A DNA stretch of 64,000 nt from Mycobacterium marseillense (GTDB lineage: Bacteria > Actinomycetota > Actinomycetes > Mycobacteriales > Mycobacteriaceae): NCBI RefSeq assembly GCF_010731675.1, contig NZ_AP022584.1, forward strand, positions 124,001 to 188,000, given 5' to 3'. Below the pieces are notes generated by a model that saw only the letters and a program-made list of their open reading frames with translations, made no database searches and was not told the DNA's origin. Made by a program: the position numbers and the translations under genes. The number at the start of each line of letters is the position of its first letter. Position 1 is the stretch's first letter. Shown piece by piece: positions 5,471 through 43,475 of the stretch.

Positions 5471-5486
5471 AAGAATGTCCGTTTCC
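5471..5486. promoter_or_regulatory. Operator-like dyad, igr-like operon
   Basis: AAGAATGTCCGTTTCC reads on the other strand as GGAAAC-N4-ATTCTT. It is 44 bases upstream of the P450 start and is nearly the same as the dyad at 38791. It belongs to the recurring GRGAAT-N4-RTTNTC family of this window. Confidence 0.55.
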
Positions 5487-5593
5487 ATGTTGTCTACAGG
5501 AGAGCTAGATCATCTGTCAATCGCCGCATATTTGGCTAGAGCTGGCTCAAATTAGCTGTTGACGGCGTTGCGGTCGGCGTGTACACACAGGTT

Positions 5594-5609
5594 GAGTATG
5601 TAAGTTATC
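5594..5609. promoter_or_regulatory. Operator-like dyad, aldehyde dehydrogenase operon
   Basis: GAGTATGTAAGTTATC fits the N4-spaced dyad family and resembles the copy at 11939. It is 54 bases upstream of the aldehyde dehydrogenase ATG. Together with the copy at 5471 it places one site in front of each divergent operon. Confidence 0.5.
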
Positions 5610-5663
5610 TCGGTGGCGTCGCCCGCGCTGCTTCATGATCGTGCAGTCAGGAAGGCAGGCAGG

Positions 5664-7124
5664 ATGGCTGGGTCGCGTTCGCTCCTCGAGGCATACGGTC
5701 ACTACATCGGCGGCCAGTGGACCGACCCGGACAGCGGACGCTACGACGTCGTCAATCCCGCCACCGAGGCGGTGATCCAAACGGCGCCCGACGCGAGCGT
5801 GGCGCAGGTCCGGCAGGCGGTCGCCGCGGCCAGGTCCGCCTTCGATACGGGTCCGTGGCCCGCGGCCGCGCCCGCGGAACGGGCCCGATGCCTGCAACAA
5901 CTCAGCGATGCGCTGATGGCCAGGGACGAGGAGGTCTACGAACTCGCGCAGGCTGAGTGGGGTTGTTCCGCAAACGAACGGCTGATTCACGTCGACGGAC
6001 CGGCATTCATGGTCGGCCATGCCGCTCAGCTCGCCACGGAGCCCGCCGAGGCGCCGATGGATGCGTGGGGGGCCGCGGGCACCACGCTGCTGCGCTACGA
6101 ACCGCTCGGTGTGGTGGCGGCCATGACGCCGTGGAACTTCCCGCACACCCTCAACGTCATGAAGCTGGGCGCGGCACTGGCGGCGGGAAATACGCTGGTG
6201 CTCAAGCCTTCGCCGCTGACACCGCTGGCAGGGCTGGCGTTGGCGCGAATCATCGACGAGGACACGGACATTCCCCCCGGCGTCGTCAACGTGGTGACGC
6301 CGACCAGCGTCGAAGCCAGCAGGAGCCTGACCTTGGATCCGAGGGTCGACATGGTGAGCTTCACCGGTAGCTCTGCCGTCGGCCGCGACGTGATGGCAGG
6401 CGCGGCGACCACGATGAAGCGCGTTCTGCTGGAATGCGGGGGCAAGTCGGCGACCATCCTGCTGCCCGACGTCGACGTCAGCGACGACCTGTTGGAACGG
6501 CTGTTGTTCGAGGGATGCACGATGCATGCCGGTCAAGCCTGCATTCTCAACAGCAGGTTGCTGCTGCCCGAGGCGATCCACGACGAGGTGGTGGACCGGC
6601 TCGCCGCACTGTCCCGCGGGGTCGTGATCGGCGATCCCGTCGATCCGGCGGTCACCATGGGTCCGTTGATCAGCCGCGAGCACCTCGACCGTGTCGAGGG
6701 ATTCGTCAAACGCGCCGAAGCCGACGGCGCGACCGTCGTGGCCGGGGGAGCCCGCCCGAAGGATCTGAGCAGCGGTTTCTATTTCGAGCCAACGATACTC
6801 ACCGACGCATCCGCCGATTCGTACATCGCGCAGGAGGAGGTGTTCGGTCCCGTGCTGACCGTGTTGCGGTATCGCGACGACGACGACGCGGTGACCATCG
6901 CCAACAATTCGTCCTACGGGCTCGGCGGGGCGGTGTGGGGAAGCGACATCGACCGTGCGGTGGCCATCGCCCGCCGGATCAGGACCGGACAGGTTTCGGT
7001 CAACGGCACGATCCCCGGCGACGCGCCGTTCGGAGGCTTCAAGCAGAGCGGCATCGGTCGGGAGGGCGGCGTGATGGGACTGCGGGCCTACATGGAGCCC
7101 AAGGCCATCGGGATACCCGCGTGA
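5664..7124 (+). CDS. NAD(P)-dependent aldehyde dehydrogenase
   Basis: The 486-residue protein contains the family motifs TPWNFPHTLN (residues 155-164), LLECGGKS with catalytic Glu257, and HAGQACILN with catalytic Cys293. It ends with the usual PFGGFKQSGIGREGG region. It should oxidise an aldehyde to a carboxylate, plausibly one made by the neighbouring P450 or by a retro-aldol step. The ATG at 5664 follows GGAAGGCAGGCAGG; the GTG at 5613 is less likely. Its stop overlaps the GTG of the CoA-transferase, which can activate the resulting acid. Confidence 0.93.
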   Translation: MAGSRSLLEAYGHYIGGQWTDPDSGRYDVVNPATEAVIQTAPDASVAQVRQAVAAARSAFDTGPWPAAAPAERARCLQQLSDALMARDEEVYELAQAEWGCSANERLIHVDGPAFMVGHAAQLATEPAEAPMDAWGAAGTTLLRYEPLGVVAAMTPWNFPHTLNVMKLGAALAAGNTLVLKPSPLTPLAGLALARIIDEDTDIPPGVVNVVTPTSVEASRSLTLDPRVDMVSFTGSSAVGRDVMAGAATTMKRVLLECGGKSATILLPDVDVSDDLLERLLFEGCTMHAGQACILNSRLLLPEAIHDEVVDRLAALSRGVVIGDPVDPAVTMGPLISREHLDRVEGFVKRAEADGATVVAGGARPKDLSSGFYFEPTILTDASADSYIAQEEVFGPVLTVLRYRDDDDAVTIANNSSYGLGGAVWGSDIDRAVAIARRIRTGQVSVNGTIPGDAPFGGFKQSGIGREGGVMGLRAYMEPKAIGIPA

Positions 7125-9517
7125 ACCGACCCCTGGCGGGCTTGCGCGTCGTCGAGTTGGCCTCCGAGATCGCGGGTCCCTATTGCACGAAGCTACTCGT
7201 CGACCTCGGCGCCGATGTGTGCAAAATCGAGCCCTCGTCAGGCGATCCCCTTCGCCGCTGGGGCCCGTTCCCCTCGGGCCATCCTGATCCGGACCGAAGC
7301 GGTCTGTTTGAGTACCTGAACGCCGGAAAGCGCGGCACCACACTTGATTTCGCACATCAAGGCGACATCACACTGCTGCGCGACACTATCTCCCAGGCGG
7401 ATGTGCTCGTCGAGGACCTGCCCGCTGGTGCGCCTGAGCGCCTGCAGTGGGGGTTGGACGAGGGCAACCTTTCCCACATCAATCCGAACCTTGTCGTGGT
7501 ACGCATCTCGACCTTCGGGCAGGAGGGGCCGCTGCGCGACCGGGTGACGACTCCGCTGACCCTGCAAGCGGCCTCGGGTTGGATCAATGTCCGTGAGCCC
7601 GGCCGGGCGCCGGTTCAGGCGGGTGCGCGCATCCCCGAATACATCGTGGGCGGGTACGCCGCCCTCGGCGCGCTCACCGCGCTCCGCATCGCCGCGGCCG
7701 GAACGAACCGGCCGGTCGAGGTGGACGTGTCGATGTTCGAGTCGCTGCTGTCGACACTGCCTTACCCCATGTTGATGGCCGCACGCCTGAAAAGTCTCGG
7801 CCTGCCGACTAATTCCAAAGCCGCGCCGATGCTGGGCATCGTGCACGCCGCCGACGGTTGGATCGGAATCAACTGCCTGACCGGCCAGCACTGGCTGGAC
7901 GTGTGCGCAATGGTCGGACTGCCCGAGTTCGGCAACCATCAGCTCGCCGTCATGCTCGGCGGCCCCGAGCGCGACGAGTTCTTCGCCAAGGCCCAGCCCT
8001 TCCTTGAATCGATGTCCGTTGCCGACCTGGTCGAATTGAGTCAGGCCATGCGAATACCCGCGGCGCCGATCTGCGCAGGGGACACCATCCTGAACTGCCC
8101 GCAGTACGCCGAGCGAGGCTTCTTCATCGAATCCGCCACGGAAACATGGCGATTCACCCGACCGGGTGCGCCGTTCCGGCTGTCGAAGACCCCGGTGCCG
8201 CCGCCGCTGGCCGCGCCTGCTGTCCGAGCGGGCGCGGAGGCGACGTGGAGCAAGCGCGACGCACCGCGCCCGACGGGTGACGTCGTCGACGTCTCTTTGC
8301 CGTTCGCCGGGCTGAAGGTGTTCGACTTGAGCACTTTCTGGGCGGGTGCGTATCTGACGTGCTACCTCGGTGCTTTCGGGGCCGACGTAGTCAAGGTCGA
8401 GTCAATCCAGCGACCCGATGGACATCGCTACTCGGGTGCCCTATTGCGCCAAGGCGACGACTGGTACGAGCGAGGTCCGCTCTGGCAGGGAACCAATCTC
8501 AACAAACGCGACATCACTCTTGACCTCACCTCTGCGACCGGCCGGGACCTGGCGCTGCGTCTGGCTGCTCAAGCCGATGTGGTGGTGGAGAACTTCTCGC
8601 CGCGCGTGGTCGAACAATTCGGGCTGGACTACGACTCCATCGCGCGCCTCAATCCCGGCGTGATCATGGTGCGAATGCCCGGATTCGGGCTGCACGGACC
8701 GTGGCGTGACTACGTGGGCTGGGCGCTGAACATCGAACAGGTATCCGGCATGTCGGCCGCGACCGGTTATGCGGACGGCCCGCCGTGCAATCTGCAGGGG
8801 CCCGCCGACCCGATCGCCGGAGTACACGCCTGCGTCGCGCTGCTGGCCGCCCTCGAACACAGGCGGTCCACCGGTGAGGGGCAGCTGATCGAGGCGGCGC
8901 AAATCGAGGTTGGCGCCGCGGTGACAGCCGATCCCGTCATCGAATACTCGTTGACGGGATCGGTGCGGCCGCGCGAGGGAAACCGCCACCGCGAATACGC
9001 GCAGGGCGTCTATTCGACCGGCAATGTCGACGAGTGGGTCGCACTCTCGGTGCGTGATGACGGTGACTGGCGAGCGGTGCTGGACGCCATTGATCGTCCC
9101 GACCTACGCGACGACCCTAGATTTGCCTCCGCCGCAGCGCGCCGGGAACACCACGACGAATTCGATGAGGTACTAGCGAATTGGACATGCGGGCGAACCG
9201 CGGAGGAAGTCGTGGCAACGTTTGGCCGGCATGGCCTGCCCGCCGAGCGACTACTGACGGCCGACCGGATGTATGACGTCGAGCAACTCGACGCGCGCGG
9301 CTTCTATCAGGACCTGGATCATTCGATCACCGGCCGACAGAGGTTTCCCGGCTGGCCGTTCCGCATCACGCCGGGACCCGCACACCAGCACAGGGCCGCG
9401 GCGCCGACACTCGGGCAGCACAACGCCGAGGTGCTTGGAGCGCTTGGACTTTCCGCCCAGGAGATTGCCGCGTTGCGGGAGCAACGAGTGATCGGGGAAC
9501 GTGTTCTGAACGCGTAG
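7121..9517 (+). CDS. Tandem-domain family III CoA-transferase (CaiB/BaiF), fused
   Basis: The product has 798 residues and two full CaiB/BaiF domains. The first starts PLAGLRVVELASEIAGPYC at residue 4, the second LPFAGLKVFDLSTFWAGAY near residue 391. Family III transferases move CoA between acyl groups through an Asp-linked anhydride. In both halves the place where I expect this Asp reads Glu (VDVSMFE in the first half, AAQIE in the second), which deserves an alignment. The GTG at 7121 overlaps the aldehyde dehydrogenase stop. The likely role is activation of the acid made by that enzyme. Confidence 0.9.
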   Translation: MNRPLAGLRVVELASEIAGPYCTKLLVDLGADVCKIEPSSGDPLRRWGPFPSGHPDPDRSGLFEYLNAGKRGTTLDFAHQGDITLLRDTISQADVLVEDLPAGAPERLQWGLDEGNLSHINPNLVVVRISTFGQEGPLRDRVTTPLTLQAASGWINVREPGRAPVQAGARIPEYIVGGYAALGALTALRIAAAGTNRPVEVDVSMFESLLSTLPYPMLMAARLKSLGLPTNSKAAPMLGIVHAADGWIGINCLTGQHWLDVCAMVGLPEFGNHQLAVMLGGPERDEFFAKAQPFLESMSVADLVELSQAMRIPAAPICAGDTILNCPQYAERGFFIESATETWRFTRPGAPFRLSKTPVPPPLAAPAVRAGAEATWSKRDAPRPTGDVVDVSLPFAGLKVFDLSTFWAGAYLTCYLGAFGADVVKVESIQRPDGHRYSGALLRQGDDWYERGPLWQGTNLNKRDITLDLTSATGRDLALRLAAQADVVVENFSPRVVEQFGLDYDSIARLNPGVIMVRMPGFGLHGPWRDYVGWALNIEQVSGMSAATGYADGPPCNLQGPADPIAGVHACVALLAALEHRRSTGEGQLIEAAQIEVGAAVTADPVIEYSLTGSVRPREGNRHREYAQGVYSTGNVDEWVALSVRDDGDWRAVLDAIDRPDLRDDPRFASAAARREHHDEFDEVLANWTCGRTAEEVVATFGRHGLPAERLLTADRMYDVEQLDARGFYQDLDHSITGRQRFPGWPFRITPGPAHQHRAAAPTLGQHNAEVLGALGLSAQEIAALREQRVIGERVLNA

Positions 9518-9540: not shown

Positions 9541-10017
9541 TCAGGCGTCGACCATCGCGGCGATCGTGTCGACGACGCACGCCGGGCGGTCGCTGCCCTC
9601 CACTTCGACGGTGACGCGAACCGTGGCCCGGCCCCCCTTGTCGTTGCGCTCGACCTTCACCAGTTCTGCCCCCGCCCTGATGCGGGAATCGACCGGTACC
9701 GGCGCGGGGAAGCGCAACTTATCGCTGCCGTAGTTGACCTGCATCGCCAATCCGGTCACCCGGTAGATCTGTTGCACGAGAATGGGTACCAGCGACAATG
9801 TCAGGTACCCGTGCGCGATGGTCTTGCCGTAGGGGCCGGCGGCCGCCTTCTCCGGGTCGACATGAATCCATTGATGGTCACCGGTCGCCTCGGCGAATAA
9901 GTCGATTTCCTTCTGAGTGACCTGGCGCCAGTCGCTGAAACCGAGGTGCTCGCCGACGTGAGTCTCGAAGTCTGCGATTCCGTCGTAAACTATCGGGGAC
10001 GTGGGCGCCTGGGTCAT
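9541..10017 (-). CDS. MaoC-type (R)-specific enoyl-CoA hydratase
   Basis: This 158-residue single-hotdog protein carries FAEATGDHQWIHVDPEKA near residue 41 and GKTIAHGYLTLSL near residue 64, the hydratase 2 motif with Asp and His as catalytic pair. It resembles HtdZ-type mycobacterial hydratases. Its ATG overlaps the stop of the amidohydrolase upstream (ATGA), so the two are one transcription unit. It converges on the CoA-transferase gene with a 23-bp gap. Confidence 0.9.
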   Translation of the reverse strand: MTQAPTSPIVYDGIADFETHVGEHLGFSDWRQVTQKEIDLFAEATGDHQWIHVDPEKAAAGPYGKTIAHGYLTLSLVPILVQQIYRVTGLAMQVNYGSDKLRFPAPVPVDSRIRAGAELVKVERNDKGGRATVRVTVEVEGSDRPACVVDTIAAMVDA

Positions 10018-11207
10018 GCCGGAACCTTGAGCCCTAATTGCTCAATAGCGTTGCCGCCCATGATCTTCGCCTTGGCGTTCTCCGCGACGCCGTCAAGCCG
10101 GTCGACGAAACTCAGTGGATCACCGATGCCCTCAGGGTGCGGGAAATCGGAGCCGAACATCACGTGATCCTCGCCCATGATGTCGATAATCCCCTTGAGG
10201 TCGTCCTCGAGGAACGGATGGATGTAGATGTTCCGCTTGAACACCTCGACGGGGTGCTCGTCGAACTCCTTGGGCATGATCTTGTACGCGGTGTTCAACT
10301 GTTCGAGCAGATTGCGCACCCATCCGCTGCCGTTCTCGACGCAGAAGATCTTCAGATCGGGGAAACGGGACAGCGCGCCGTGACAGATCATCGCGGCCAG
10401 GGTGTCCTCGATGGCGCGATGGCCCATCACGACCTCGCGTAACGCGCTCGGCTTGAAGGACAGGTACTCGTCACCGCCCTCCCACTCCATGAGGTGCTTC
10501 TGGTAGCCGCTGTCCGACGCGTGCATGGTGACCGGCATGTCGGCGTTCACGACTTCTTCCCAGAACGGATCGAACTCGGGGAGGCCCATGGACCGCGAAC
10601 CGCCGAAGCGGCTGGGCACGGGTGCGGGACGCACCAGGAACGTCTTCATGCCGTGCTCGAGGCCCCAGTGGAATTCCTTGATGGCTTCGTCCACCAGGGG
10701 CAGGCAGATGACGGGGGTCGCGAAGATTCGGTCGTGATAGTTGAACGTCCAGTGCTCGGCCATCCATTCGTTGAGGGCGTGAATGATCGCGTGCGTGAGG
10801 ATAACGTCGTCGGTCGTGCGTTCCTCAATGAGGCTGGCGAGGGTCGGGTACATCACACAGCGGTCAATGCCCAGCTCGTCCATCAGCTCGAGGCGGGGAG
10901 CGGGATCCTGATACGCGGGAATGACATCCATTGCTTCGCCCACAAATTCGCGGAAGTTGAGGCCTTCGGGGTTGTTACCGAGGAAGTAATCCTCGGCGCT
11001 ACCTGGCCTGGCGACGCGCGCGAAAGTCGGGTTGGGGATCATATGGCTGATGTGGTCCTTGACGACGAGCTTGGGGCGGCCATTGACCTCGACGTAGCCG
11101 ACCTTTCCGCGATGCTCCTTCGGTAAGTACTTCGTGAGCGCGTCCGTCGTCTCGTACATGTGGTTGTCGATGTCGAAAACCGGGTACGGCAAGGAACGGG
11201 AAGACAT
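10014..11207 (-). CDS. Amidohydrolase-2 family TIM-barrel metal enzyme (paralogue 1 of 4)
   Basis: The 397-residue protein opens with DIDNHMYETTDALTKYLP and ends with FGSDFPHPEG, the two metal-site ends of the amidohydrolase_2 fold. The usual first HxH is DxDNH here, so the metal site is not standard. Relatives include ACMSD and resorcylate decarboxylases, so hydrolysis, decarboxylation or ring opening are all possible. The ATG at 11207 follows GGAGGAAAG; an upstream ATG at 11240 lacks a ribosome site. The dyad at 11252 lies 45 bases upstream. The paralogues are at 14668, 19612 and 37545. Confidence 0.88.
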   Translation of the reverse strand: MSSRSLPYPVFDIDNHMYETTDALTKYLPKEHRGKVGYVEVNGRPKLVVKDHISHMIPNPTFARVARPGSAEDYFLGNNPEGLNFREFVGEAMDVIPAYQDPAPRLELMDELGIDRCVMYPTLASLIEERTTDDVILTHAIIHALNEWMAEHWTFNYHDRIFATPVICLPLVDEAIKEFHWGLEHGMKTFLVRPAPVPSRFGGSRSMGLPEFDPFWEEVVNADMPVTMHASDSGYQKHLMEWEGGDEYLSFKPSALREVVMGHRAIEDTLAAMICHGALSRFPDLKIFCVENGSGWVRNLLEQLNTAYKIMPKEFDEHPVEVFKRNIYIHPFLEDDLKGIIDIMGEDHVMFGSDFPHPEGIGDPLSFVDRLDGVAENAKAKIMGGNAIEQLGLKVPA

Positions 11208-11251
11208 TGAACTTTCCTCCTGAGCAGCGAATATGATCATTTACGCTATCT

Positions 11252-11266
11252 GAGAACGACGTTATC
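11252..11266. promoter_or_regulatory. Operator-like dyad, N3-spaced form
   Basis: GAGAACGACGTTATC lies within the longer palindrome TGAGAACGACGTTATCA (11251-11267). It is 45 bases upstream of the amidohydrolase start. The spacing between half-sites is three bases, as at 28582 and 33567. Confidence 0.55.
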
Positions 11267-11938: not shown

Positions 11939-11954
11939 GAGAATAGACGTTATC
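11939..11954. promoter_or_regulatory. Operator-like dyad between divergent genes
   Basis: GAGAATAGACGTTATC fits the N4-spaced dyad family. It touches the start codon of the isochorismatase-like gene and is 34 bases upstream of the SnoaL-like gene on the other strand, so it could control both. Confidence 0.6.
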
Positions 11955-12435: not shown

Positions 12436-12442
12436 GGAGGCG

Positions 12443-14634: not shown

Positions 14635-14650
14635 GAGAATAAGCATTCTC
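14635..14650. promoter_or_regulatory. Operator-like dyad, perfect 6-4-6 palindrome
   Basis: GAGAATAAGCATTCTC has perfect six-base arms. It is 17 bases upstream of the amidohydrolase GTG at 14668 and sits in the region shared with the divergent acyl-CoA dehydrogenase operon. It is one of the two clearest copies of the family. Confidence 0.75.
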
Positions 14651-20790: not shown

Positions 20791-20809
20791 CCGCGCCTCC
20801 AGCATGTGA

Positions 20810-20825
20810 GAGAATGTTGATTCTC
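20810..20825. promoter_or_regulatory. Operator-like dyad, perfect 6-4-6 palindrome
   Basis: GAGAATGTTGATTCTC has perfect arms and lies 19 bases upstream of the amidohydrolase GTG at 20790. It resembles the copy at 14635 in both sequence and distance to the start codon. Confidence 0.75.
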
Positions 20826-20861
20826 AAGATAGCAAACGATTGTATCCGTCGACGACCCGGC

Positions 20862-28558: not shown

Positions 28559-28574
28559 GGAAATTAAGATACCC
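28559..28574. promoter_or_regulatory. Operator-like dyad (weaker copy)
   Basis: GGAAATTAAGATACCC fits the N4-spaced family with mismatches. It is 48 bases upstream of the double-hotdog gene start, in the divergent region with the hydratase gene at 28612. Confidence 0.4.
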
Positions 28575-28581: not shown

Positions 28582-28596
28582 GGAAACGCCGTTAAC
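28582..28596. promoter_or_regulatory. Operator-like dyad, N3-spaced form
   Basis: GGAAACGCCGTTAAC matches the three-base-spaced copies at 11252 and 33567. It is 15 bases upstream of the hydratase ATG at 28612. Confidence 0.45.
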
Positions 28597-28611: not shown

Positions 28612-29436
28612 ATGTCAGAAGAAGCATCCGGAATCGTGTGTGCGATCGACAACGATGGTGTCGCACGGGTGACGATAAATCGCCCGGAAGCGGGAAACTC
28701 GTTGTCGCCGTTGGCGCGTGACGCCGTGACGGAGGCCTTCGTGCGGGCCAATGAAAACCCCGCAGTCCGCGCGGTGCTGTTGAACGCCACTGGTAGTAGG
28801 CACTTCTGCGCCGGCGCTGGACTCGCACCGCGGCCGGATGGCGCGGCGGCCGCCGCCGGGCCGACATCAAGGCGCCCCGGCGACATCGCGCGGATGCTTC
28901 AGCAGGGTTGGCAGCGGCTGGTCGCCTCCATTCTCGACTGTGATAAGCCGGTGGTCGCCGCGGTCAAGGGTACCGCCGCCGGGGCCGGCGCGAGTCTGGT
29001 TCTGGCGTGCGACCTGGTCGTGATGTCAAGGGAGGCAAAGCTTGTCGAGGCATTCGTGCAACGCGGGATCCTGCCGGATTCCGGTGCCATCTACCTTTTG
29101 ACGCGCATCGTGGGCCTGCGCAAGGCGACCGAACTGTTGATGCTCGGTGAGCCGGTCGATGCGGCCGCGTGCGAAAGGCTCGGCCTGGTCAACCGCGTGA
29201 CCGCTCCGGACGACACCGACGCGGTCGCCGAGGAACTCGCCGGCCGTTTAGCCGCGGGGCCGACGGTGATGCTGTCGCTGACCAAGCGGCTGTTGTCGGT
29301 GTCGTCGGAGTCTGATCGGCACCGCGCATTCGAGCAGGAGGCATGGGCGCAGGAGGTGGTGTCGCGCACGGCGGACCTTCAGGAAGGCCTCGCTTCCTTC
29401 GCCGAACGCCGCGCGCCCAGGTTTCTCGGTCGCTGA
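28612..29436 (+). CDS. Enoyl-CoA hydratase/isomerase family protein
   Basis: The 274-residue protein contains HFCAGAGLAPRP, VKGTAAGAGASLVLACDLVV and ILPDSGAIYLLTRIVGLRKA. A run of alanines and glycines (DGAAAAAGP) follows the first oxyanion region. The PDSG motif groups it with the gene at 26449. I chose the ATG at 28612 behind GAGCGAG; a GTG nine bases earlier is possible. It is transcribed away from the long minus operon and converges on an SDR gene with an 11-bp gap. Confidence 0.9.
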   Translation: MSEEASGIVCAIDNDGVARVTINRPEAGNSLSPLARDAVTEAFVRANENPAVRAVLLNATGSRHFCAGAGLAPRPDGAAAAAGPTSRRPGDIARMLQQGWQRLVASILDCDKPVVAAVKGTAAGAGASLVLACDLVVMSREAKLVEAFVQRGILPDSGAIYLLTRIVGLRKATELLMLGEPVDAAACERLGLVNRVTAPDDTDAVAEELAGRLAAGPTVMLSLTKRLLSVSSESDRHRAFEQEAWAQEVVSRTADLQEGLASFAERRAPRFLGR

Positions 29437-30318: not shown

Positions 30319-30334
30319 GAGAGGTTACATTTAC
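30319..30334. promoter_or_regulatory. Weak operator-like sequence between divergent SDR and ligase genes
   Basis: GAGAGGTTACATTTAC keeps GAGA and ATT in register with the N4 dyad family but has several mismatches. It also lies in a separate partial palindrome, AGGTTACATTTACCT. Reported because this 65-bp divergent region has no better copy. Confidence 0.25.
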
Positions 30335-30370
30335 CTAATCGAGAGCAGTCATTTGCATCGGAGGAAACCC

Positions 30371-31942: not shown

Positions 31943-32366
31943 GCGACCCTGCCGCCGAGGCCCCGCCGCCAGCAGGACGGAAGACCGGGACGACGAATCC
32001 ATCTTCGTCATCGCGGAAGGCGATCACCAAATCCATGCCGGCGCATAAATCTTCGATCTGGCAATTCTCCACGACCGTCATCAATCGCGGCCCCTCCGCG
32101 AGGTCCACCATCGCCAACACGTACGGGGTGCGCACATCGAAAGGAGCCGCATTGTGGTGGATGACGCTCCACGTGTAGAGCCGTCCGCGACCGCTGGCCT
32201 GTGCCAACTCGACGTCCTCACCCCAACAGTGCGGGCAGAACGGCCGTGCGTACAAAGATGTCTGGCCGCAGGACCCGCAGACGTTCACCATCAGCTTGCG
32301 GTCCTGCGCGGCTGACCACCACGCTCGGCCGTCGGCGTCGACCGTGGGCCGATCAGGAGCCGTCAT
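31932..32366 (-). CDS. Zn-ribbon/OB-fold DUF35 protein, second copy
   Basis: The 144-residue protein has the zinc ribbon CGSCGQTSLYARPFCPHC near residue 30 and an OB fold with LYTWSVIHHNAAPFDVRTPY. It follows a thiolase-like gene with an ATGA overlap, the usual arrangement for a DUF35 subunit and its Ltp-type partner. By analogy with Ltp2-ChsH2 and bacterial thiolase-DUF35 complexes, the two should form one enzyme. The protein ends in a Gly/Ala-rich tail. Confidence 0.9.
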   Translation of the reverse strand: MTAPDRPTVDADGRAWWSAAQDRKLMVNVCGSCGQTSLYARPFCPHCWGEDVELAQASGRGRLYTWSVIHHNAAPFDVRTPYVLAMVDLAEGPRLMTVVENCQIEDLCAGMDLVIAFRDDEDGFVVPVFRPAGGGASAAGSLTP

Positions 32367-33511
32367 CACTGCCTCCCGAGAATCATTGTGGCGCTGTGGG
32401 TAAAGAAGCCGCCCATGGCATGGACGCACCCCAGCGCGGCCCCGCTGACCTGGCGCGGTCCGCATTCTCCGCGCAACTGTCTGACCGCCTCCACCATGAG
32501 GAACATCCCCCGCATACCAGGATGGCAGGAAGCCAGGCCACCGCCGTCGGTGTTGGTGGGCAGCGCCCCGCCTGGCCGAAGCGCGCCGGACTCGATGAAG
32601 GGCCCCCCGTCGCCCTTGGCGCAGAAGCCGAGGTCCTCCACGGTCAACAGGACGGTGGAGGTAAAGGAGTCGTAGAGTTGGCACACATCGATGTCCGCCG
32701 GGCCGATGCCGGCGCGCGCGAACGCGAGTGGACCCGAGCGCGCCGCAGGCGACGTCGTGAAATCGGGCCAGTGGCTCATGCTCACGTGCGACGTCGCGTC
32801 GGCCGCCCCGAGAATCCAAACCGGTTCCTTCGCGCAGTCCCGGGCCACGCGCTCGCTGGCAAGAACGACCGCACCGCCACCGTCGGTGCGCAGGCACACA
32901 TGCTTGGAGGTGAACGGGTCGGCCAACATCGGCGCAGCCGCGACATCCGCGATGGTGATGCGCTCTCGGTCAAACGCGTTGTCGTTCAGGGCCGCCCACT
33001 CGTGGGCTGCGACGGCGACTTCGGCCAGTTGGTCGACCGTGGTGCCGAATTCGATCATGTGGCGCCTGGCCGCCATGGCGTATTTGGCAATCAGAGTGGG
33101 GCCGTAGGGCGCCTCGTACTGCAGTGCGCCACCGGTTCCCATGGCCGCAGCTGACGCCCGTACTTGTCGCTTGACGTCGGAACGTGCGGTCGACGCATAG
33201 GTCAGCAGAGCGACATCAATTTCCCCGGCCGCGATCGCGCCGGCTGCATGACCGGCCATCACTTCCCACGAAGATCCGCCGACGTTGGTCGCGTCGACCC
33301 AAGTCGGCCGTAGGCCGAGGTACTCGCTGACTTCTACGGGCGGAAGCAACGTTCCGTGCCCACCGAAACCATCGATGTCCTCCTTGGTGAGCCCGGCATC
33401 CGCGACAGCCCGCCGCGACGATTGAGCCATGAGAGCCATGGCGGTCTTGTCGGGCACCCGGCCGCACTCGGACAGGGCTGCGCCCACGATGGCGACGCGG
33501 TTCGACGGCAT
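32366..33511 (-). CDS. Thiolase-fold lipid-transfer-type protein (Ltp), partner of the DUF35 protein
   Basis: The 381-residue protein begins VAIVGAALSECGRVPDKTAM and has TNVGGSSWEVMAGHAAGAIA, CQLYDSFTSTVLLTVEDLGF and NTDGGGLASCHPGMRG, which are thiolase/SCP-x hallmarks. Ltp-type members often lack one or more thiolase cysteines and catalyse retro-aldol or acyl transfer reactions instead. The ATG at 33511 faces the divergent aldolase gene across a region with several dyads. It likely cleaves a C-C bond in the island's pathway. Confidence 0.9.
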   Translation of the reverse strand: MPSNRVAIVGAALSECGRVPDKTAMALMAQSSRRAVADAGLTKEDIDGFGGHGTLLPPVEVSEYLGLRPTWVDATNVGGSSWEVMAGHAAGAIAAGEIDVALLTYASTARSDVKRQVRASAAAMGTGGALQYEAPYGPTLIAKYAMAARRHMIEFGTTVDQLAEVAVAAHEWAALNDNAFDRERITIADVAAAPMLADPFTSKHVCLRTDGGGAVVLASERVARDCAKEPVWILGAADATSHVSMSHWPDFTTSPAARSGPLAFARAGIGPADIDVCQLYDSFTSTVLLTVEDLGFCAKGDGGPFIESGALRPGGALPTNTDGGGLASCHPGMRGMFLMVEAVRQLRGECGPRQVSGAALGCVHAMGGFFTHSATMILGRQ

Positions 33512-33566
33512 AGCTAATGGTTATCACATCCCTGTCCCGGCTGATAACGACCATTGACGATATTGT

Positions 33567-33581
33567 GGAAACGATATTCTC
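33567..33581. promoter_or_regulatory. Operator-like dyad, N3-spaced form
   Basis: GGAAACGATATTCTC matches the copies at 11252 and 28582. It is 19 bases upstream of the aldolase ATG at 33601 and 55 bases upstream of the thiolase-like start. A second, weaker candidate (GATAACGACCATTGAC) lies at 33542-33557. Confidence 0.5.
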
Positions 33582-33600
33582 GGTCCGCTACCGTGTGCCT

Positions 33601-34392
33601 ATGACGACGACGCTGCGGGACGCGTTGCGCGGAGACGCGCCGGTGCTCTGCCTGGCGTTGCTCAGTGCGCGCACTCCTGACGTTCCCGCGATCGCGGCCG
33701 CATGCGGATACGACGCCGTTTACGTCGATCTCGAGCACACAACCACGTCGCTGGACACTGCGCAGATGCTGTGCGTGAGCGCACTTGGCGCGGGAATTTC
33801 CGGCCTGGTGCGGGTGCCGTCCCACGATCCCAGCGTCATCGCGAGAGCCTTGGACGGCAGCGCGGTAGGAATCATTGTGCCCCATGTTAATTCGAAGGAA
33901 GAAGCAAAAGGTGTGGTCCGGGCTGCGCGCTTTCCGCCGATCGGTAGCCGGTCCATCTCGGGTCTAAATGCGGTCAGTGGATACACACCGCGAGGAGCGC
34001 CGCAATTGGTGGACTTGCTCGAACGGCGCACCGTTGTGGCGGTGATGGTCGAGACTCCAGAGGCGGTCGAAGCATCCGACTCCATCGCCTCGGTCGATGG
34101 GGTCGACATGATCCTCATCGGGCCGAGTGATCTGACCGCGGCGATGGGCATCCATGGGCAGTATGAGAATGAGCATTTCCATCGTGCAGTAGAATCGGTC
34201 GCGGCGGCTTGTCGTGGTCACGGCGTGGCGCTCGGCATCGCCGGAATAAAGTCAGTTGACCTGCTGAATCGATTCGTGGGACTCGGATTGCGATTCATCT
34301 CGGCGGGCACCGACATCGGGATGATGACCGAGGCGGCCACAGCGCGCGCGCAAGCGCTTCGCGAACTGCCGAGCCATCAGCGAGCCGAATGA
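33601..34392 (+). CDS. HpcH/HpaI-family class II pyruvate aldolase
   Basis: The 263-residue TIM-barrel protein has YVDLEHTTTSLDTAQML, LVRVPSHDPSVIARALD with the conserved Arg, VMVETPEAVEASDSIASVDG with the metal-binding Glu and MILIGPSDLTAAMG with the metal-binding Asp. Members cleave 4-hydroxy-2-oxoacids to pyruvate and an aldehyde. The ATG at 33601 was chosen because the dyad at 33567 lies just before it. It is followed by a TauD-type gene after 43 bp and probably heads the plus operon to 37529. Confidence 0.9.
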   Translation: MTTTLRDALRGDAPVLCLALLSARTPDVPAIAAACGYDAVYVDLEHTTTSLDTAQMLCVSALGAGISGLVRVPSHDPSVIARALDGSAVGIIVPHVNSKEEAKGVVRAARFPPIGSRSISGLNAVSGYTPRGAPQLVDLLERRTVVAVMVETPEAVEASDSIASVDGVDMILIGPSDLTAAMGIHGQYENEHFHRAVESVAAACRGHGVALGIAGIKSVDLLNRFVGLGLRFISAGTDIGMMTEAATARAQALRELPSHQRAE

Positions 34393-37544: not shown

Positions 37545-38732
37545 CTACACCATTCCGAAGAAGTTCTTCGCGTTGGTGGACAGCACCTTTCGCTTGGTTG
37601 CCTCGTCCAGCCCTTCCGTCGCCTTGTTGGCGACCTCGGTGCTGCGCGGCCAGTTCGTGTCGTTGTGTGGGTAGTCGGTTTCGAACATGAGCTGGTCCTC
37701 ACCGACCAGATCCAGGATGCGGAACGCGACCGGATCGCCGAAGGTGGAAAACCAAACCCGACCGGGTACCTGACTGCTCGGCGGTTCGGTCAGCAGGGGG
37801 TGGATCCCGCCCCACGCCCGCCGGTCCTCCCAGACCTCGTCGACGCGCTGCAGGTAGTACGGGATCCAACCCGCTTGCGCCTCGGCGAACGCGAGCTTGA
37901 GGTCGGGGAACTGCATGAGCTTGCCGGAGAACAGCCAGTCGACCAGCGCGATAGTGCAATTGACCGCCATCAGCGCGCTCGTCACGACATGCGGAGAGTC
38001 GGGCGAGGACTTGGTGAGCGAAGAACTCGACCCGATGTGCAGCATGATCCCCACCTGGTTTCGCTCACATGCGGCGAAGAACGGGTCCCAATAGCCGCTG
38101 TGAATGGACGGCAGATCCAGACGAGAGGGCAGCTCGGAGAAGCACACGGCGTGCATGCCACGGGCGGCTACCCGTTCGACCTCCTTGACGGCGAGGTCGA
38201 CGTCCCAGAGCGGGATGATGCCCAGCGGGATCAGCCGACCGTTCGAACTCCCGCCCCACTCGTCGATCTGGAAGTCGTTGTAGGCCTCGACGCAGAGCTG
38301 CGCGAGCTGTTTGTCCTTGCCGTAGAGGAAGCGTTGACCGCAGAAACGGACGAGGGTATTGGGGAAACACGCCGAGGCCTCGATGCCGGCGATGTCCATG
38401 TCGGCGAGCCGATCCGCCGGCCGGAAGCAGCCGGGGCGCATCTCGTCGTAGGTGATTGGGTCGGTAGTGAGTTCGTCGATTTCGTAGCCGGCGGCCGCGC
38501 TGATGAGGGGGATCGGGATAATGGCGTCCTCGTAGTGCCAGATGTCTGCGTCCCGGCCCTCGTCGTCCTCGACGAACGCGACGTCGGACGTGACGGACGG
38601 GTCCATGCGCCCGCGGGTGCGAACGATCCGCGGTCCGATGTCTCGGTAGCGCTCGGGTAGTCGGCTGGTCCACAGATCTGCCGGCTCTACCAGATGGTCG
38701 TCCGGCGAGACGATTAGGATATCTGCGCTCAA
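37545..38732 (-). CDS. Amidohydrolase-2 family TIM-barrel metal enzyme (paralogue 4 of 4)
   Basis: The 395-residue protein starts with a TTG behind AAGGAG and opens IVSPDDHLVEPADLWTSRLP. It ends MFETDYPHNDTNWP. It is the most divergent of the four amidohydrolases: the metal site starts DDH rather than DxDxH, and the Asp near the end is in ETDYPH instead of GSDYPH. It resembles mycobacterial proteins annotated only as amidohydrolases. The gene is divergent from the TetR gene at 38992 with operator-like dyads in between. Confidence 0.87.
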   Translation of the reverse strand: MSADILIVSPDDHLVEPADLWTSRLPERYRDIGPRIVRTRGRMDPSVTSDVAFVEDDEGRDADIWHYEDAIIPIPLISAAAGYEIDELTTDPITYDEMRPGCFRPADRLADMDIAGIEASACFPNTLVRFCGQRFLYGKDKQLAQLCVEAYNDFQIDEWGGSSNGRLIPLGIIPLWDVDLAVKEVERVAARGMHAVCFSELPSRLDLPSIHSGYWDPFFAACERNQVGIMLHIGSSSSLTKSSPDSPHVVTSALMAVNCTIALVDWLFSGKLMQFPDLKLAFAEAQAGWIPYYLQRVDEVWEDRRAWGGIHPLLTEPPSSQVPGRVWFSTFGDPVAFRILDLVGEDQLMFETDYPHNDTNWPRSTEVANKATEGLDEATKRKVLSTNAKNFFGMV

Positions 38733-38790: not shown

Positions 38791-38806
38791 GAGAATGACC
38801 GTTTCC
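38791..38806. promoter_or_regulatory. Operator-like dyad
   Basis: GAGAATGACCGTTTCC is the reverse-order twin of the copy at 5471. It is 58 bases upstream of the amidohydrolase start and faces the TetR gene on the other side. Confidence 0.55.
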
Positions 38807-38934
38807 ACGGTACCGCATCGGGGTCGTCTCGTGCGCCGGGCACCTCCAGATGGAGGGAAGACCGGGGCGCCGGCGCGGCGATCGCGGGCGCGGTCCATGC
38901 GGGCAACAGCGACTTACGCGCAGTGAGAATCAAC

Positions 38935-38950
38935 ATACGCGTGTAGGTAG
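38935..38950. promoter_or_regulatory. Operator-like dyad (weaker), TetR promoter region
   Basis: GAGAATCAACATACGC keeps a perfect first half and an imperfect second half of the dyad family. It is 41 bases upstream of the TetR ATG at 38992, so the regulator may control itself. Confidence 0.4.
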
Positions 38951-38991
38951 ATCGCACATTTTCCGTAGCGGACGCGTATTCTTACCGCATT

Positions 38992-39792
38992 ATGCCTACG
39001 AAGAAGCCTGCCGGTTCCGCCGATTTCGAAGCCGGTTTAGAACTTGTCGATACCGAGGTCGAGCTGCCCGGCACGTGGCAGCAACGCACGATCGATCGGC
39101 GGTTGAGTACTGCCAGAGCGCGTGCCCTCGCCCGCAGTTCGCGGTTTTTGGCCACCGCGCTCGAATTGGTAGAGGAGTCGGGCAAGGCCGACTTCACTAT
39201 CCAGACGCTCATCGACAGGTCGAATCTGAGTCTCCGCGCTTTCTATCAACATTTCGCGGGCAAAGAAGAACTCATGTTGGCGCTCTACGAGAACGTGACA
39301 AGTCAGTTCACCGAGGACATCCGGCAGGATGTCGCCGCGGCCGACGGTCCGATGGAGCAACTCGAGGCCTTCTGCCGGGGCGTGCTGTCGCGTGCGGAAT
39401 CGTCGGAAGCCGTCGGCGGCCGGGTCATGACGATCTACAACCTGAGCCTGGAGATCGAGCGGCCGGACGACTTCGCCAAGGTGTGGGAGCCTCACCTGAA
39501 GCTCCTGACGAAGATCATCACCTCGTGCGCTCGGGCCGGCCTGGTACGCACCGACCTGACCCCCGCGCAGCTGACCACGTTGCTGAACACGACGCTCACC
39601 GCGCTCGCCCAGATCGGTGTTTTTCATCTGGGCGGCAAAGGTTCCAAGCTGACCGAGGACCAATTGTGGGCGTGGTGCAAGCAAGCGGTCACGCCGCCGG
39701 TCCCGGATGCCAAGGCCAAGCCTGCGCGCAAGGCGTCCGCGCGTGCCGCGTCTGCCGGCCGGGCCGGACGGTCTAAGAAACTAACGGGGTAG
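38992..39792 (+). CDS. TetR-family regulator with basic C-terminal tail, candidate master regulator of the island
   Basis: The 266-residue protein has a TetR DNA-binding domain at about residues 45-100, with the helix-turn-helix FTIQTLIDRSNLSLRAFYQHF at 68-88. About 45 residues precede it, longer than usual. The C-terminus from about residue 243 is rich in Lys, Arg and Ala (KPARKASARAASAGRAGRSK), a tail not typical of TetR proteins. Its ligand is unknown; acyl-CoA or steroid-like intermediates are plausible. The dyads at 38791 and 38935 lie in its divergent promoter, and the same dyad is found through the island. Confidence 0.9.
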   Translation: MPTKKPAGSADFEAGLELVDTEVELPGTWQQRTIDRRLSTARARALARSSRFLATALELVEESGKADFTIQTLIDRSNLSLRAFYQHFAGKEELMLALYENVTSQFTEDIRQDVAAADGPMEQLEAFCRGVLSRAESSEAVGGRVMTIYNLSLEIERPDDFAKVWEPHLKLLTKIITSCARAGLVRTDLTPAQLTTLLNTTLTALAQIGVFHLGGKGSKLTEDQLWAWCKQAVTPPVPDAKAKPARKASARAASAGRAGRSKKLTG

Positions 39793-40941: not shown

Positions 40942-41009
40942 TGTCTACACGCCAATCTGTCGTCGTATATGCCCTGGGTAGCACAGACGATAATGCTAAT
41001 CTCAATTTT

Positions 41010-41025
41010 GAGAGTAACCATATCC
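41010..41025. promoter_or_regulatory. Operator-like dyad between divergent acyl-CoA dehydrogenases
   Basis: GAGAGTAACCATATCC fits the N4 family with mismatches. It overlaps a separate perfect palindrome, TCTCAATTTTGAGA, at 41000-41013. Both lie within the 105-bp region between the two divergent starts. Confidence 0.45.
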
Positions 41026-42066: not shown

Positions 42067-42500
42067 ACAGGATCGCGCGACGCAAGGATCGCAAAGCTCA
42101 GCGTGGCGCGTGCCGCGAGCCGGTTTCGGCCAACGTCGCAGACGTCGACGCCGACAACGATCATCCGCTTTCCCGCGCGCACCAGCGTGGCGATCGCACG
42201 CGCGGGCCCATCGACGATCGGGGCCAGGAAATGGATGGACATGTCCGCGGTTCCCGCCCCGCCGCCGTCGCCGGCATATTTGACCGCAAGGCGCCCGGCG
42301 GCGACATCGATGAGTGTGGCTACGAGTCCCCCCTGCAGCGCGCCGCGCAGGTTCGTCAGGTCCGGCCGGTTGTGCAGGTCGACGACGACCGAATCATCGG
42401 TGTCGACGACGTCGTAGAACGGCAGCTGGGCGAAGAGATGCCCCGGAACGGTGACGTCCATGGGGCGTGGCGCCGCGGGCGAGTTGTTGGTCACCGGCAC
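42045..42500 (-). CDS. PaaI-type hotdog thioesterase
   Basis: The protein of about 151 residues has NLRGALQGGLVATLIDVAAG, the PaaI-type hotdog helix with an Asp, and MSIHFLAPIVDGPARAIATL. It should release CoA from acyl thioesters, perhaps relieving dead-end intermediates. The GTG at 42500 lies four bases after the hydratase stop; a longer start at 42545 would overlap that gene by 41 bp. No strong ribosome site is visible, in line with translational coupling. Confidence 0.82.
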   Translation of the reverse strand: MPVTNNSPAAPRPMDVTVPGHLFAQLPFYDVVDTDDSVVVDLHNRPDLTNLRGALQGGLVATLIDVAAGRLAVKYAGDGGGAGTADMSIHFLAPIVDGPARAIATLVRAGKRMIVVGVDVCDVGRNRLAARATLSFAILASRDPVHSAAAP

Positions 42501-42504
42501 AACG

Positions 42505-43413
42505 TTAGACGCCGGACCGGACCTGATCTTTGACGGCCAATACAACCGGGGGAGCGGTCCGCCAGTTCGGCACCCCTTGCTCTTCGCCCGCGGTGGGGAG
42601 CTTGTCCTCGCGGATCTGGGCCCAGTGTGAGTGATTCAGTTGGTGCAGCGCGAAACACGATTGCAGCGCGTTGTAAAAGCCCATGTTGTCGACTGATTGG
42701 TTCACCGATTCCTTGATGAGCAGGGCCGCCATCGTGGGCACTTTCGTGATCCGCCGCGCCAACTCCAGCGTGCGCTCGGCGAGTTCGTCGCGCGTGAAGA
42801 TCTTGCTGACCATGCCGAGCCGGTAGGCCTCTTCGATCCCGATCGCGTCACCGGTGAGCATGAGCTCCTTCGTGCGGCGCGGTCCGAATTCCCAGGGATG
42901 GCCGAAGTATTCCATGCCGCACATGCCGAGCCGCGTCCCCACCACATCGGCGAAGCGCACCTCTTCGCTTCCCACGATGAGGTCGCAGGCCCAGATCAGC
43001 ATGAGACCTGCTGAGAACACGTCGCCGTGCACCTGGGCGATCGTGATCTTGCGCAGGTTGCGCCAGCGCAGGTTGTTTTGAAAGAAATAGTGCCATTCCT
43101 GCAGCATGGTCCGCTCCGCGCCGTCGCGCGTACCTCCATTGATGGCCACGGTGGGGTGCTGGCCGGGCCCCGGACCGAACTCGGCACGCGCCTGCTTGGA
43201 GCCGATGTCGTGACCGGACGAGAACATCGGGCCCTCGCCGGCCAGGACGACGACGCGGACGGTGTCATCGGACTCGGCGCGGGCAAACGCCTCATCGAGT
43301 TCGACCAGCATGCCCCGATTCTGGGCGTTGCGCTGGTCGGGGCGATTCAGCGAAATCCGAACGACCATGCTGTCGTCGAAGGTCTCCCACTTCAAGAATT
43401 CGTAATCGCTCAC
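42505..43413 (-). CDS. Enoyl-CoA hydratase/isomerase family protein
   Basis: The 302-residue protein, longer than its paralogues, has MFSSGHDIGSKQARAEFGPG, a Trp/Phe-rich insert near residue 105 (EWHYFFQNNLRWRN) and HGDVFSAGLMLIWACDLIVG. FSSGHDIGS is the oxyanion region of ECHA20-like hydratases/hydrolases. The start is a GTG at 43413 behind GAAAGGGG. It is followed closely by a thioesterase gene and is divergent from a DapB-like dehydrogenase with the strong dyad at 43460. Confidence 0.9.
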   Translation of the reverse strand: MSDYEFLKWETFDDSMVVRISLNRPDQRNAQNRGMLVELDEAFARAESDDTVRVVVLAGEGPMFSSGHDIGSKQARAEFGPGPGQHPTVAINGGTRDGAERTMLQEWHYFFQNNLRWRNLRKITIAQVHGDVFSAGLMLIWACDLIVGSEEVRFADVVGTRLGMCGMEYFGHPWEFGPRRTKELMLTGDAIGIEEAYRLGMVSKIFTRDELAERTLELARRITKVPTMAALLIKESVNQSVDNMGFYNALQSCFALHQLNHSHWAQIREDKLPTAGEEQGVPNWRTAPPVVLAVKDQVRSGV

Positions 43414-43459
43414 CGTTCGCCCCTTTCGTCCGCATCCGGTAATGGTGTTATCAATATAT

Positions 43460-43475
43460 GAGAAGGTATGTTCTC
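43460..43475. promoter_or_regulatory. Operator-like dyad, long palindrome
   Basis: GAGAAGGTATGTTCTC sits inside TGAGAAGGTATGTTCTCA (43459-43476). It lies 34 bases upstream of the dehydrogenase ATG at 43510 and 46 bases upstream of the hydratase GTG on the other strand. Confidence 0.65.

Follow-up and report, generated by a model that had tools for sequence, protein, structure and literature searches.

Which regulator reads the short dyad that recurs in front of the operons of a catabolic island in Mycobacterium marseillense, and how far does its regulon extend? The island comprises 62 called genes over roughly 65 kb (C1:103474-169278; window -20.5 kb to +45.3 kb, the window being the whole stretch of 64,000 nucleotides that was analysed), and it probably serves the breakdown of a ring-shaped lipid. 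What was computed directly is that the dyads exist, cluster, pair up and are conserved, and that they are linked to one regulator gene. On this basis the dyads are very probably operators of a single local TetR-family repressor, here called TetR1, that would control itself and many of the island operons.

Occurrence of the dyad

In the window, the loose consensus GRGAATNNNNRTTNTC occurs only a little more often than chance predicts (41 matches with up to two mismatches versus 27.2 expected; none of 100 shuffles reached 41); a strict form and a matrix took its place as tests. Decisive evidence comes from the strict form: all four sites of GAGAAT-N4-ATTCTC with at most one mismatch in the 5.5-Mb genome fall in the island, within 36 kb (C1:108635-144825, with two lying upstream of the window), while the reversed-pattern control at the same tolerance found no site in that genome. 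With up to two mismatches there are 28 sites genome-wide, and 11 of these fall in C1:108635-167475, a stretch that makes up about 1% of the genome; two of the 11 (C1:135389 and C1:158165) lie inside open reading frames (ORFs). The original prediction named an equal abundance of such dyads far from the island as the outcome that would speak against it, and at neither tolerance was this observed. A perfect dyad is present in 61 of 248 genomes of the same genus. A first iterative matrix drifted toward coding-like matches and was dropped; scores (PWM) refer to a stricter one, which found 71 matches in 20 loci versus 0-7 for each of 12 column-permuted matrices, a control that covered the first 20 of 57 loci.

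Sequence checks recovered the dyads predicted at 5471, 5594, 11939, 14635, 20810, 28559, 38791 and 43460, the N3-spaced forms at 11252, 28582 and 33567, and the two perfect palindromes (14635 and 20810). The dyad reported at 38935 exists, with 38925 as its true position; that at 41010 is present only loosely and is absent among the matches with up to two mismatches. Dyads missing from that list were found at 11229, 30319/30341, 34165 (intragenic), 20832, 38948, 40989 and 43438 (Table 1), as well as outside the window, at C1:105616 and 108635 (16-18 kb to the left of its start) and at C1:113921, 114076 and 118860. A simple gene caller places all listed copies in intergenic space; whether all of them precede start codons depends on which starts are chosen. 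The alternative start 43468 falls within the dyad 43460, and the alternative start 5472 within 5471; 28559/28582 would be coding if their ORF started at 28528, and 33567 if its ORF started at 33517, with in-frame starts past the dyads at 28612 and 33601.

Table 1. Dyads and related features of the island (window coordinates; N3 and N4, spacer of three or four bases)
Feature	Position	Strand	Score and conservation
CGGACA-N13-TGTCCG inverted repeat overlapping dyad 5471	5457..5481		6/6 islands, one letter off in G246 (also in alignment)
Doubtful dyad before 5664	5594..5609		PWM 16.0; no partner
N4 dyad before amidohydrolase 10014-11207	11229..11244		PWM 16.1; aligned in 6 genomes
N3 dyad GAGAACGACGTTATC, 22.5 bp from 11229	11252..11266		N3 score 17.0
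Dyad in divergent space 11938-/11989+	11939..11954		PWM 17.6; 15.4-18.4 in 5/5 sister islands
Perfect dyad before amidohydrolase at 14668	14635..14650		21.6-22.7, same place, 5/5 sister islands
Perfect dyad before amidohydrolase 19612-20805	20810..20825		21.4-23.2, same place, 4 sister islands
Partner dyad GCAAACGATTGTATCC, 22 bp from 20810	20832..20847		PWM 9.8
N4 dyad before 27260-28510	28559..28574		16-mer identical in 6/6 genomes
N3 dyad, 22.5 bp from 28559	28582..28596		Half-sites kept, 6/6 genomes
Dyad GAGAGGTTACATTTAC before AMP-binding ligase gene 30371	30319..30334		At most 1 base changed, 6 aligned genomes
Partner dyad, 22 bp from 30319	30341..30356		PWM 9.6 here; 11.9-17.2 in 5 sister islands
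Dyad before thiolase-like gene 32366-33511	33543..33558		PWM 8.8; N4 here, N3 in four sisters (alignment)
N3 dyad GGAAACGATATTCTC, 23.5 bp from 33543	33567..33581		N3 score 17.4; GAGAAY half kept, 6 aligned genomes
Intragenic dyad in HpcH/HpaI aldolase ORF 33517-34392, 255 bp before TauD gene 34436	34165..34180
Dyad GAGAATGACCGTTTCC before amidohydrolase 37545-38732	38791..38806		PWM 16.6
Dyad GAGAATCAACATACGC upstream of TetR1	38925..38940		PWM 17.2; pairs with 38948
Partner dyad TAGATCGCACATTTTC, 23 bp from 38925	38948..38963		PWM 12.0
TetR1, likely regulator, 266 aa	38992..39792	+	TetR_N Pfam match
N3 dyad GATAATGCTAATCTC before acyl-CoA dehydrogenase at 41083	40989..41003		Score 14.3; aligned in 6 genomes
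Partner N4 dyad, 21.5 bp from 40989	41010..41025		PWM 9.6 here; 7.5-17.3 in sister islands
N3 dyad GGTAATGGTGTTATC	43438..43452		Score 12.4
N4 dyad, divergent space 43413-/43468+, 22.5 bp from 43438	43460..43475

TetR1 as the likely reader

TetR1 carries an N-terminal TetR_N helix-turn-helix domain (PF00440, 31.6 bits versus a cut-off of 24). Relatives of at least 60% identity occur in 37 of 40 dyad-positive genomes and in 0 of 40 dyad-negative ones (samples from 61 and 187 genomes, respectively). The three exceptions (G057, G082 and G134) hold one perfect dyad each with no second dyad of at most one mismatch nearby, so that these dyads look like chance. Among the 37, G012 has a 64% relative with the same helix, its sole perfect dyad lies 2.8 Mb away, and the 20 kb around the relative contain no N4 site scoring at least 10 and no dyad pair. 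Among the matches listed for 28 genomes with TetR1 and at least one perfect dyad there are 52 perfect dyads: 36 on the contig of TetR1 within 76 kb, 15 on other contigs, which makes them unplaceable, and the distant one of G012.

Of 57 TetR1 orthologues, 56 have a dyad scoring at least 13.5 in the 350 bp ahead of the gene, in this as in other species, which amounts to a palindromic operator in the regulator's own promoter; at scores of at least 14, 15 and 16 the count is 54, 51 and 41. Site density in these upstream regions is 4.3 per kb, versus 0.16 per kb elsewhere in the loci. The one orthologue without an upstream dyad at the threshold is L071. The 57 loci are 59 minus L094 (Williamsia) and L096 (Dietzia, 29% identity), neither of which has an N4 site scoring at least 15.5. 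Both the co-occurrence and the upstream dyads favour the candidate at 38992 that had been proposed from the start.

The presumed recognition helix SNLSLRAFYQHF is nearly invariant in 21 aligned proteins, namely the TetR1 of the window and 20 of 25 candidate rows (L068 and L092 were left out for a stop codon in the stretch, and L072, L076 and L095 to limit size). Paralogues of TetR1 (60-63% identity) with a near-identical helix have GAGAGTNNNRTTCTC 150-250 bp upstream in all three loci examined, out of four (G102 was left out). An AlphaFold model of TetR1 is all-helical but poor (mean pLDDT 66.5), and gave no hint of a ligand.

Paired dyads and promoter position

The dyads are often paired at 21.5-24 bp centre to centre, with N3 and N4 forms mixed. 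A partner scoring at least 4 at this distance accompanies 55 of 91 strong sites in six islands, whose relatedness makes these sites non-independent; five other spacing windows gave 0, 0, 3, 6 and 1 partners for the same 91 sites. Both the partner cut-off and the 21.5-24 bp window were set after a first look at the data. In this island, 11 of the 18 listed sites have a partner of at least 4, and 7 do not, the strong site 14635 (3.4) among them. Sites with up to two mismatches outside the island were rejected as members of the regulon, as none of these 17 has such a partner. The locus of a Williamsia relative of TetR1 (62-63% identity; 20.8 kb) contains three dyad pairs at 22-23 bp with summed scores of 24.2-28.7, versus a best summed pair score of 7.4-17.7 in six control loci.

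Activators exist within the TetR family, and TetR1 bound to the dyads could be an activator or a dual regulator instead of a plain repressor, as might be read from some dyads 61-97 bp before the start codon and from the one inside a gene. We consider this unlikely, given that many dyads overlap -10-like hexamers and start codons or lie next to them, and that TetR1 has dyads in its own upstream region, as is typical of repression. A -10-like TANNNT starting 6 bp before the dyad was found in 11 of 84 oriented pairs, versus a background of 0.17 per offset. Hexamers inside the dyad arise partly from the motif itself.

Other regulators of the island

It is also quite unlikely that another TetR of the island, TetR4 (C1:105670-106302) or TetR2 (C1:122678-123316), reads the GAGAAT dyads. 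Of 40 dyad-positive genomes, 36 contain a TetR4 relative of at least 61%, with none above 44% listed for the 40 dyad-negative ones; as this nearly equals TetR1, inheritance of the island as a unit may account for part of the co-occurrence of TetR1 and dyads. However, the intergenic space of TetR4 itself lacks the GAGAAT dyad and holds a different palindrome, CAACATTCANNNTGAATGTTG, twice, which occurs nowhere else in the genome at up to two mismatches of its relaxed form. Weaker copies of CAACATTCANNNTGAATGTTG exist elsewhere in the sister islands. TetR2 relatives of at least 69% were found in 33 of 40 dyad-positive genomes (one, in G047, a contig-end fragment) and in one dyad-negative genome (G065). 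Against TetR2 stand the lack of a dyad upstream of it, the occurrence of 61-69% relatives in many dyad-negative genomes, and G132, which has dyads, TetR1 and TetR4 without a close TetR2.

Conservation and extent of the regulon

The comparison set consisted of this island and five syntenic sister islands of other species. With the matrix from this genome, each sister island yields 13-18 sites, many of them at corresponding promoters. The counterpart of 38791 scores 16.6-18.8 upstream of the amidohydrolase in five sister islands, at a corresponding distance (-74 to -92) in four of five, and a 43460-type dyad lies upstream of the 43413 gene in all six islands (PWM 16.2-21.8). The gene behind the 20810 site is 90-96% identical in the four sisters that share the site, and G084, with only a 58% relative, also has a dyad. 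At 11229 the best upstream score is 11.1-16.1 in the five sister islands, and the half-sites of 11252 are kept in the six-genome alignment, with one extra spacer base in G145. For C1:105616, 113921 and 114076, not every sister has a dyad at the equivalent position.

The island contains paralogue families (five Amidohydro_2 proteins, enoyl-CoA hydratases and acyl-CoA dehydrogenases), and the dyads might accordingly be copied promoters, a by-product of gene duplication rather than a maintained regulon. This appears very improbable: between promoters the half-sites are kept while spacer letters and flanks differ, unrelated gene families are preceded by dyads, and cross-species conservation at single promoters and in codons points to selection. 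The second candidate of the original prediction, the TetR at 45441 (TetR3), adjoins the right edge of the island and has a GAGAAT-like sequence in its own upstream region, but can practically be dismissed, because it has no match of at least 50% in the five sister islands and its relatives are found in genomes with the dyad as well as in those without it; in its 300 bp upstream, no dyad scores above 4.3.

The same operator stands before catabolic operons and is rare elsewhere in the genome, as in local TetR catabolic regulons of the KstR kind. About 35 kb had been taken as one regulon. The regulon reading is supported, and the dyads in fact span about 62 kb (C1:105616-167475); it applies to much, but not surely all, of the island, since 5471 and 5594 are doubtful and the operon running leftward from 5427 may differ. 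These two sites score well in only two of six islands, here and in the nearest sister, G246. The 5471 dyad scores 13.9 here and 16.9 in G246 only; the counterpart of 5594 reaches 14.6 at a like place in G246, with a best upstream score of 2.5-9.5 in the other four. A good dyad for the 5427-leftward operon is wanting in four of five sister islands, and at least this operon may answer mainly to another regulator. The CGGACA-N13-TGTCCG repeat that overlaps the 5471 dyad is a probable operator of a different regulator. As an operator of TetR2 the CGGACA-N-TGTCCG repeat was rejected, being absent from six TetR2-paralogue loci. A looser form occurs once, in L143, 7 kb from the gene.

The intragenic dyad at 34165 scores 17.5-19.6 in all six islands. 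By a codon test with 54 of 58 sequences searched, it appears to be kept at the nucleotide level, which makes a coding accident of the conserved E-N-x-H-F segment unlikely and suggests selection on DNA letters within a protein gene.

Proposed mechanism

We infer that TetR1 binds the dyads and represses, with cooperativity between dimers and release by an inducer. A TetR1 dimer would read GAGAAT half-sites separated by 3 or 4 bp, and at many promoters two (sometimes more) dimers would occupy neighbouring positions about 22.5 bp (two helical turns) from each other, covering the core promoter and the start region. A weak dyad may be helped by its neighbour, and a strong one may suffice by itself. 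Release of TetR1 would be brought about by a ligand, probably an intermediate of the pathway such as a CoA thioester. More tentatively, and with some doubt, TetR1 may form rows: dimers in register every two helical turns, N3 and N4 spacers tolerated through neighbour contacts, pairs over promoters (triplets or four in a row at some loci), and the intragenic operator acting as a road-block or internal control. If true, TetR1, its Williamsia relative and the paralogues would have a distinct operator grammar in common. Possible neighbour-assisted TetR binding can be tested clearly on the two-turn paired spacing, and for a large catabolic island there is now a candidate regulator together with an operator rule and a boundary. 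TetR1 would further provide a direct route to the substrate, as a compound that releases it from its dyad, or one on which growth induces the island, would identify the pathway.

Relation to known systems and possible substrate

EthR reportedly octamerizes cooperatively on its operator, going by the title of a cited study. The operators of EthR and Mce3R are described as larger and more complex, with multiple copies, and as departing from the classical short-spacer palindrome (PMC4482099); unlike these, the units of the TetR1 island are clear dyads at a spacing of about 22.5 bp. KstR (Rv3574) is described as a mycobacterial TetR repressor that controls itself and a large lipid-metabolism regulon through the motif TnnAACnnGTTnnA, with one dimer per dyad and a palindrome in its own promoter that partly overlaps the -10 region (PMC1995591). 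The proposed TetR1 regulon likewise combines a TetR with a short palindrome in its own promoter, but differs in motif, regulator and gene set. KstR2 is reported as a local TetR repressor of 15 genes and three promoters, whose motif AnCAAGnnCTTGnT was found from its own promoter and then its surroundings (PMC3068626); it resembles TetR1 as a local system with the motif in its own promoter, and the motifs differ. The window has no exact match to TnnAACnnGTTnnA and none to AnCAAGnnCTTGnT, in agreement with the earlier statement that the dyad is not the KstR or KstR2 pattern. Among the titles and abstract openings surfaced by searches of an open-access library there is no paper on this regulon, and those papers that bring together TetR, Mycobacterium and a GAGAAT palindrome do not concern this motif.

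In the 5427-leftward operon, a P450 is best matched by CYP125MRCA, an acyl-CoA dehydrogenase by 4x28, which we take to be a steroid-pathway enzyme, and a hydratase by ChsH1 and ChsH2 alone; the operon also encodes an OB_ChsH2_C and a Thiolase_C_1 protein. The enzyme set resembles the ChsE/ChsH/Ltp2 steroid side-chain module, from which the operon differs in having no KstR site in the window and dyads of its own that are weak in most sister islands. The amidohydrolase 37545-38732 has as its best solved-structure matches DitZ (E 5.5e-53) and PtmU3 (9.5e-31), with a likeness in sequence only; both presumably act on diterpenoids. The substrate of the island may perhaps be a polycyclic terpenoid or steroid-like acid.

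Clustering and conservation of the dyad

According to the original prediction, inverted repeats of the type GRGAAT-N4-RTTNTC (dyads) precede nearly all operons of some 35 kb and unite them in one regulon. Their positions agree with the sequence, except that 38935 should read 38925. The loose consensus is weak evidence for clustering, with 41 matches at up to two mismatches in the window (C1:124001-188000; C1 marks contig coordinates) vs 27.2 expected. The strict symmetric form GAGAATNNNNATTCTC is strong evidence: in the genome searched (5.5 Mb, 2 contigs) it occurs at up to one mismatch at four sites (C1:108635, 113921, 138635, 144810), and at up to two mismatches at 28, of which 11 lie within C1:108635-167475 (two of these, 135389 and 158165, inside ORFs). 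Because strict-form sites concentrate in this segment, the cluster is real; it is not confined to the window, however, and continues to its left (C1:108635, 113921).

Sites from this region served to train a symmetric 16-bp matrix; in a scan of 144 kb (C1:64001-208000) its 14 top-scoring sites all fell within C1:105616-167475. A simple gene caller placed 13 of these 14 between genes and 108635 in the beginning of a called gene; site 34165, intergenic by the caller, actually lies within an HpcH_HpaI ORF that it overlooked. Since the training sites are local, conservation in other genomes is the proper test of the matrix. Five syntenic sister islands (80-100 kb each) hold 13, 13, 15, 16 and 18 sites scoring at least 14. 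Across 20 loci from the set retrieved for TetR1 (see table) orthologues, 71 sites score at least 15 vs 0-7 for twelve column-permuted matrices; these loci overlap with the same-genus genomes (L045 and G133 have identical coordinates), so the two sets are non-independent. The perfect dyad was found in 61/248 same-genus genomes and the reversed pattern, an imperfect background model, in 0/248. Some single perfect dyads (G012, G057, G082, G134, G222) look like chance occurrences.

Second dyads scoring at least 4 are nearly confined to a centre distance of 21.5-24 bp on either side of a strong site (55/91 in the five sister islands and our own), while five other windows of equal width gave 0, 0, 3, 6 and 1 such sites; the count of 6 sits at 45 bp, double the spacing, as triplets would give. 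In this genome 11/18 listed island sites have such a partner vs 0/17 outside sites. The N3-spaced sites 11252, 28582 and 33567, listed earlier as a separate form, are indeed present and are explained by this pairing as partners of 11229, 28559 and 33543. Both members are visible in six-genome alignments at 11229/11252, 28559/28582, 30319/30341, 33543/33567 and 40989/41010, and the spacer at 33543 and 11252 varies between N3 and N4 with the species.

The intragenic dyad 34165 has no partner in this genome. Its Asn codon is AAT in 53/54 sequences (114/223 for the gene's other Asn codons), and its fourth codon ends in T in 54/54: CAT in 43/43 with His, and CGT, GAT or TAT with Arg (6), Asp (3) or Tyr (2). 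CAT accounts for 114/401 of the gene's other His codons. The overall His tally at the dyad (44/45) includes two His at the third codon, and as the 54 sequences are related, no probability is stated. This codon bias argues for selection at the DNA level.

Features of the island and its surroundings
Feature	Position	Context
TetR1	38992-39792
TetR2	C1:122678-123316	final gene of the operon leftward from 5427
TetR3	45441
TetR4	C1:105670-106302
CAACATTCANNNTGAATGTTG palindrome and weaker second copy	L006:2317-2337, 2397-2417 (C1:106317, 106397)	between TetR4 and divergent Peripla_BP_6 gene 106424
13-bp palindrome TCTCACTGTGAGA	46019-46217	upstream of TetR3; differs from the island dyad
Dyad 34165	34165	in frame in aldolase ORF (33517-34392), residues E-N-E-H-F
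CGGACA-N13-TGTCCG inverted repeat	5457-5481	divergent promoter of P450/Chs-like operon; overlaps 5471; 6/6 islands, one letter off in G246

The candidate regulator

Of the four TetR genes within the island or close to it, TetR1 is the best-supported predicted reader of the dyads because it co-occurs with them and carries them upstream, while the other three fit less well. Relatives of at least 60% identity were found in 37/40 dyad-positive vs 0/40 dyad-negative genomes tested, the best matches in the latter being no better than 1.4e-33. In 56/57 orthologues the 350 bp before the matched start contain a dyad scoring at least 13.5, and dyad density there is 4.3 per kb vs 0.16 per kb in the rest of those loci. 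Where TetR1 and perfect dyads were both listed (28 genomes), 36/52 perfect dyads share the contig of TetR1 at a distance of at most 76 kb; 15, found on a different contig of the assembly than TetR1, are unplaceable, and one lies 2.8 Mb away (G012).

TetR4 co-occurs with the dyads almost as often (36/40), but its intergenic space holds another palindrome, CAACATTCANNNTGAATGTTG, whose only two sites genome-wide at up to two mismatches are both there, and which is probably the operator of TetR4 itself. Similar sites also occur in sister islands. TetR2, also less supported than TetR1, closes the operon leftward from 5427, and no dyad lies upstream of it. TetR3, the second regulator originally proposed beside TetR1, has no match of at least 50% in the five sister islands and is rejected.

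Paralogues of TetR1 (60-63% identity; G107, G170, G007) have a presumed recognition helix, ANLSVRTFYQHF or ANLSLRTFYQHF, near-identical to its SNLSLRAFYQHF, and GAGAGTNNNRTTCTC occurs upstream of all three paralogue genes. Every paralogue locus (20 kb) holds one further N3 dyad at up to one mismatch, where 0.13-0.16 would be expected, and upstream of the G170 paralogue four dyads, some weak, stand in a row at 22-23 bp (L110, 9525-9607). In Williamsia the gene of a relative (62-63%) is directly preceded by a degenerate dyad, GAGCACGAGCATTCTC, and three dyad pairs with 22-23 bp spacing lie 4 to 9 kb from it. Counting against this pattern, the relative in G012 (64%) shares the helix but showed no dyad pair. 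Among 120 listed of 228 database homologues, names are absent or generic regulator names. The last 30 residues of TetR1 form a low-confidence basic C-terminal tail, before which the aligned stretches of the paralogues stop.

Mode of action and doubtful members

In 84 site-gene pairs, chosen with the dyad -10 to 110 bp from the start codon, the distance ranges from -9 to 97 bp. In 11/84 pairs a TANNNT hexamer begins 6 bp before the dyad, vs 0.17 per offset upstream; inside the dyad it is commoner still (18/84 at one offset), partly as a consequence of the motif itself. These positions fit promoter occlusion. By analogy with KstR (PMC1995591), TetR1 may repress the island and permit its induction. 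KstR and KstR2 (PMC3068626) represent the same kind of local TetR catabolic regulon, whereas motif and regulator differ here. A TetR survey in 10 mycobacterial species (PMC4482099) gives motifs for 30 regulators under M. tuberculosis gene numbers.

Sites 5471 and 5594, predicted as regulon members, score well here (13.9 and 16.0) and at the corresponding place in sister island G246 (16.9 and 14.6), but the same space in the other four islands reaches at most 9.5. As these dyads are weak elsewhere and a second inverted repeat, overlapping 5471 here, occurs in all six islands (see table), the P450/acyl-CoA dehydrogenase/hydratase operon leftward from 5427 may answer mainly to another regulator; one guess would be TetR2.

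Gene content

Five Amidohydro_2 proteins have a dyad close upstream (10014, 14668, 19612, 37545, C1:104271). A scan of part of the called genes further gave acyl-CoA dehydrogenases, enoyl-CoA hydratases, AMP-binding ligases, family III CoA-transferases, P450s, thiolase-like proteins, TauD, HpcH aldolase and DAP_DH_C. The top solved-structure matches of amidohydrolase 37545-38732 are DitZ and PtmU3, both members of diterpenoid pathways; for P450 4234-5427 the top match is a CYP125-type chain, and the hydratase of the operon at 5427 matches only ChsH1 and ChsH2. Our best guess, a tentative one, is a polycyclic terpenoid or steroid-like acid as substrate. A single ORF of 798 aa (7121-9517) holds two tandem family III CoA-transferase domains. 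To the left of the island, 6 kb (C1:89098-95243) are without typical genes by the simple gene caller and are perhaps a mobile or foreign element.
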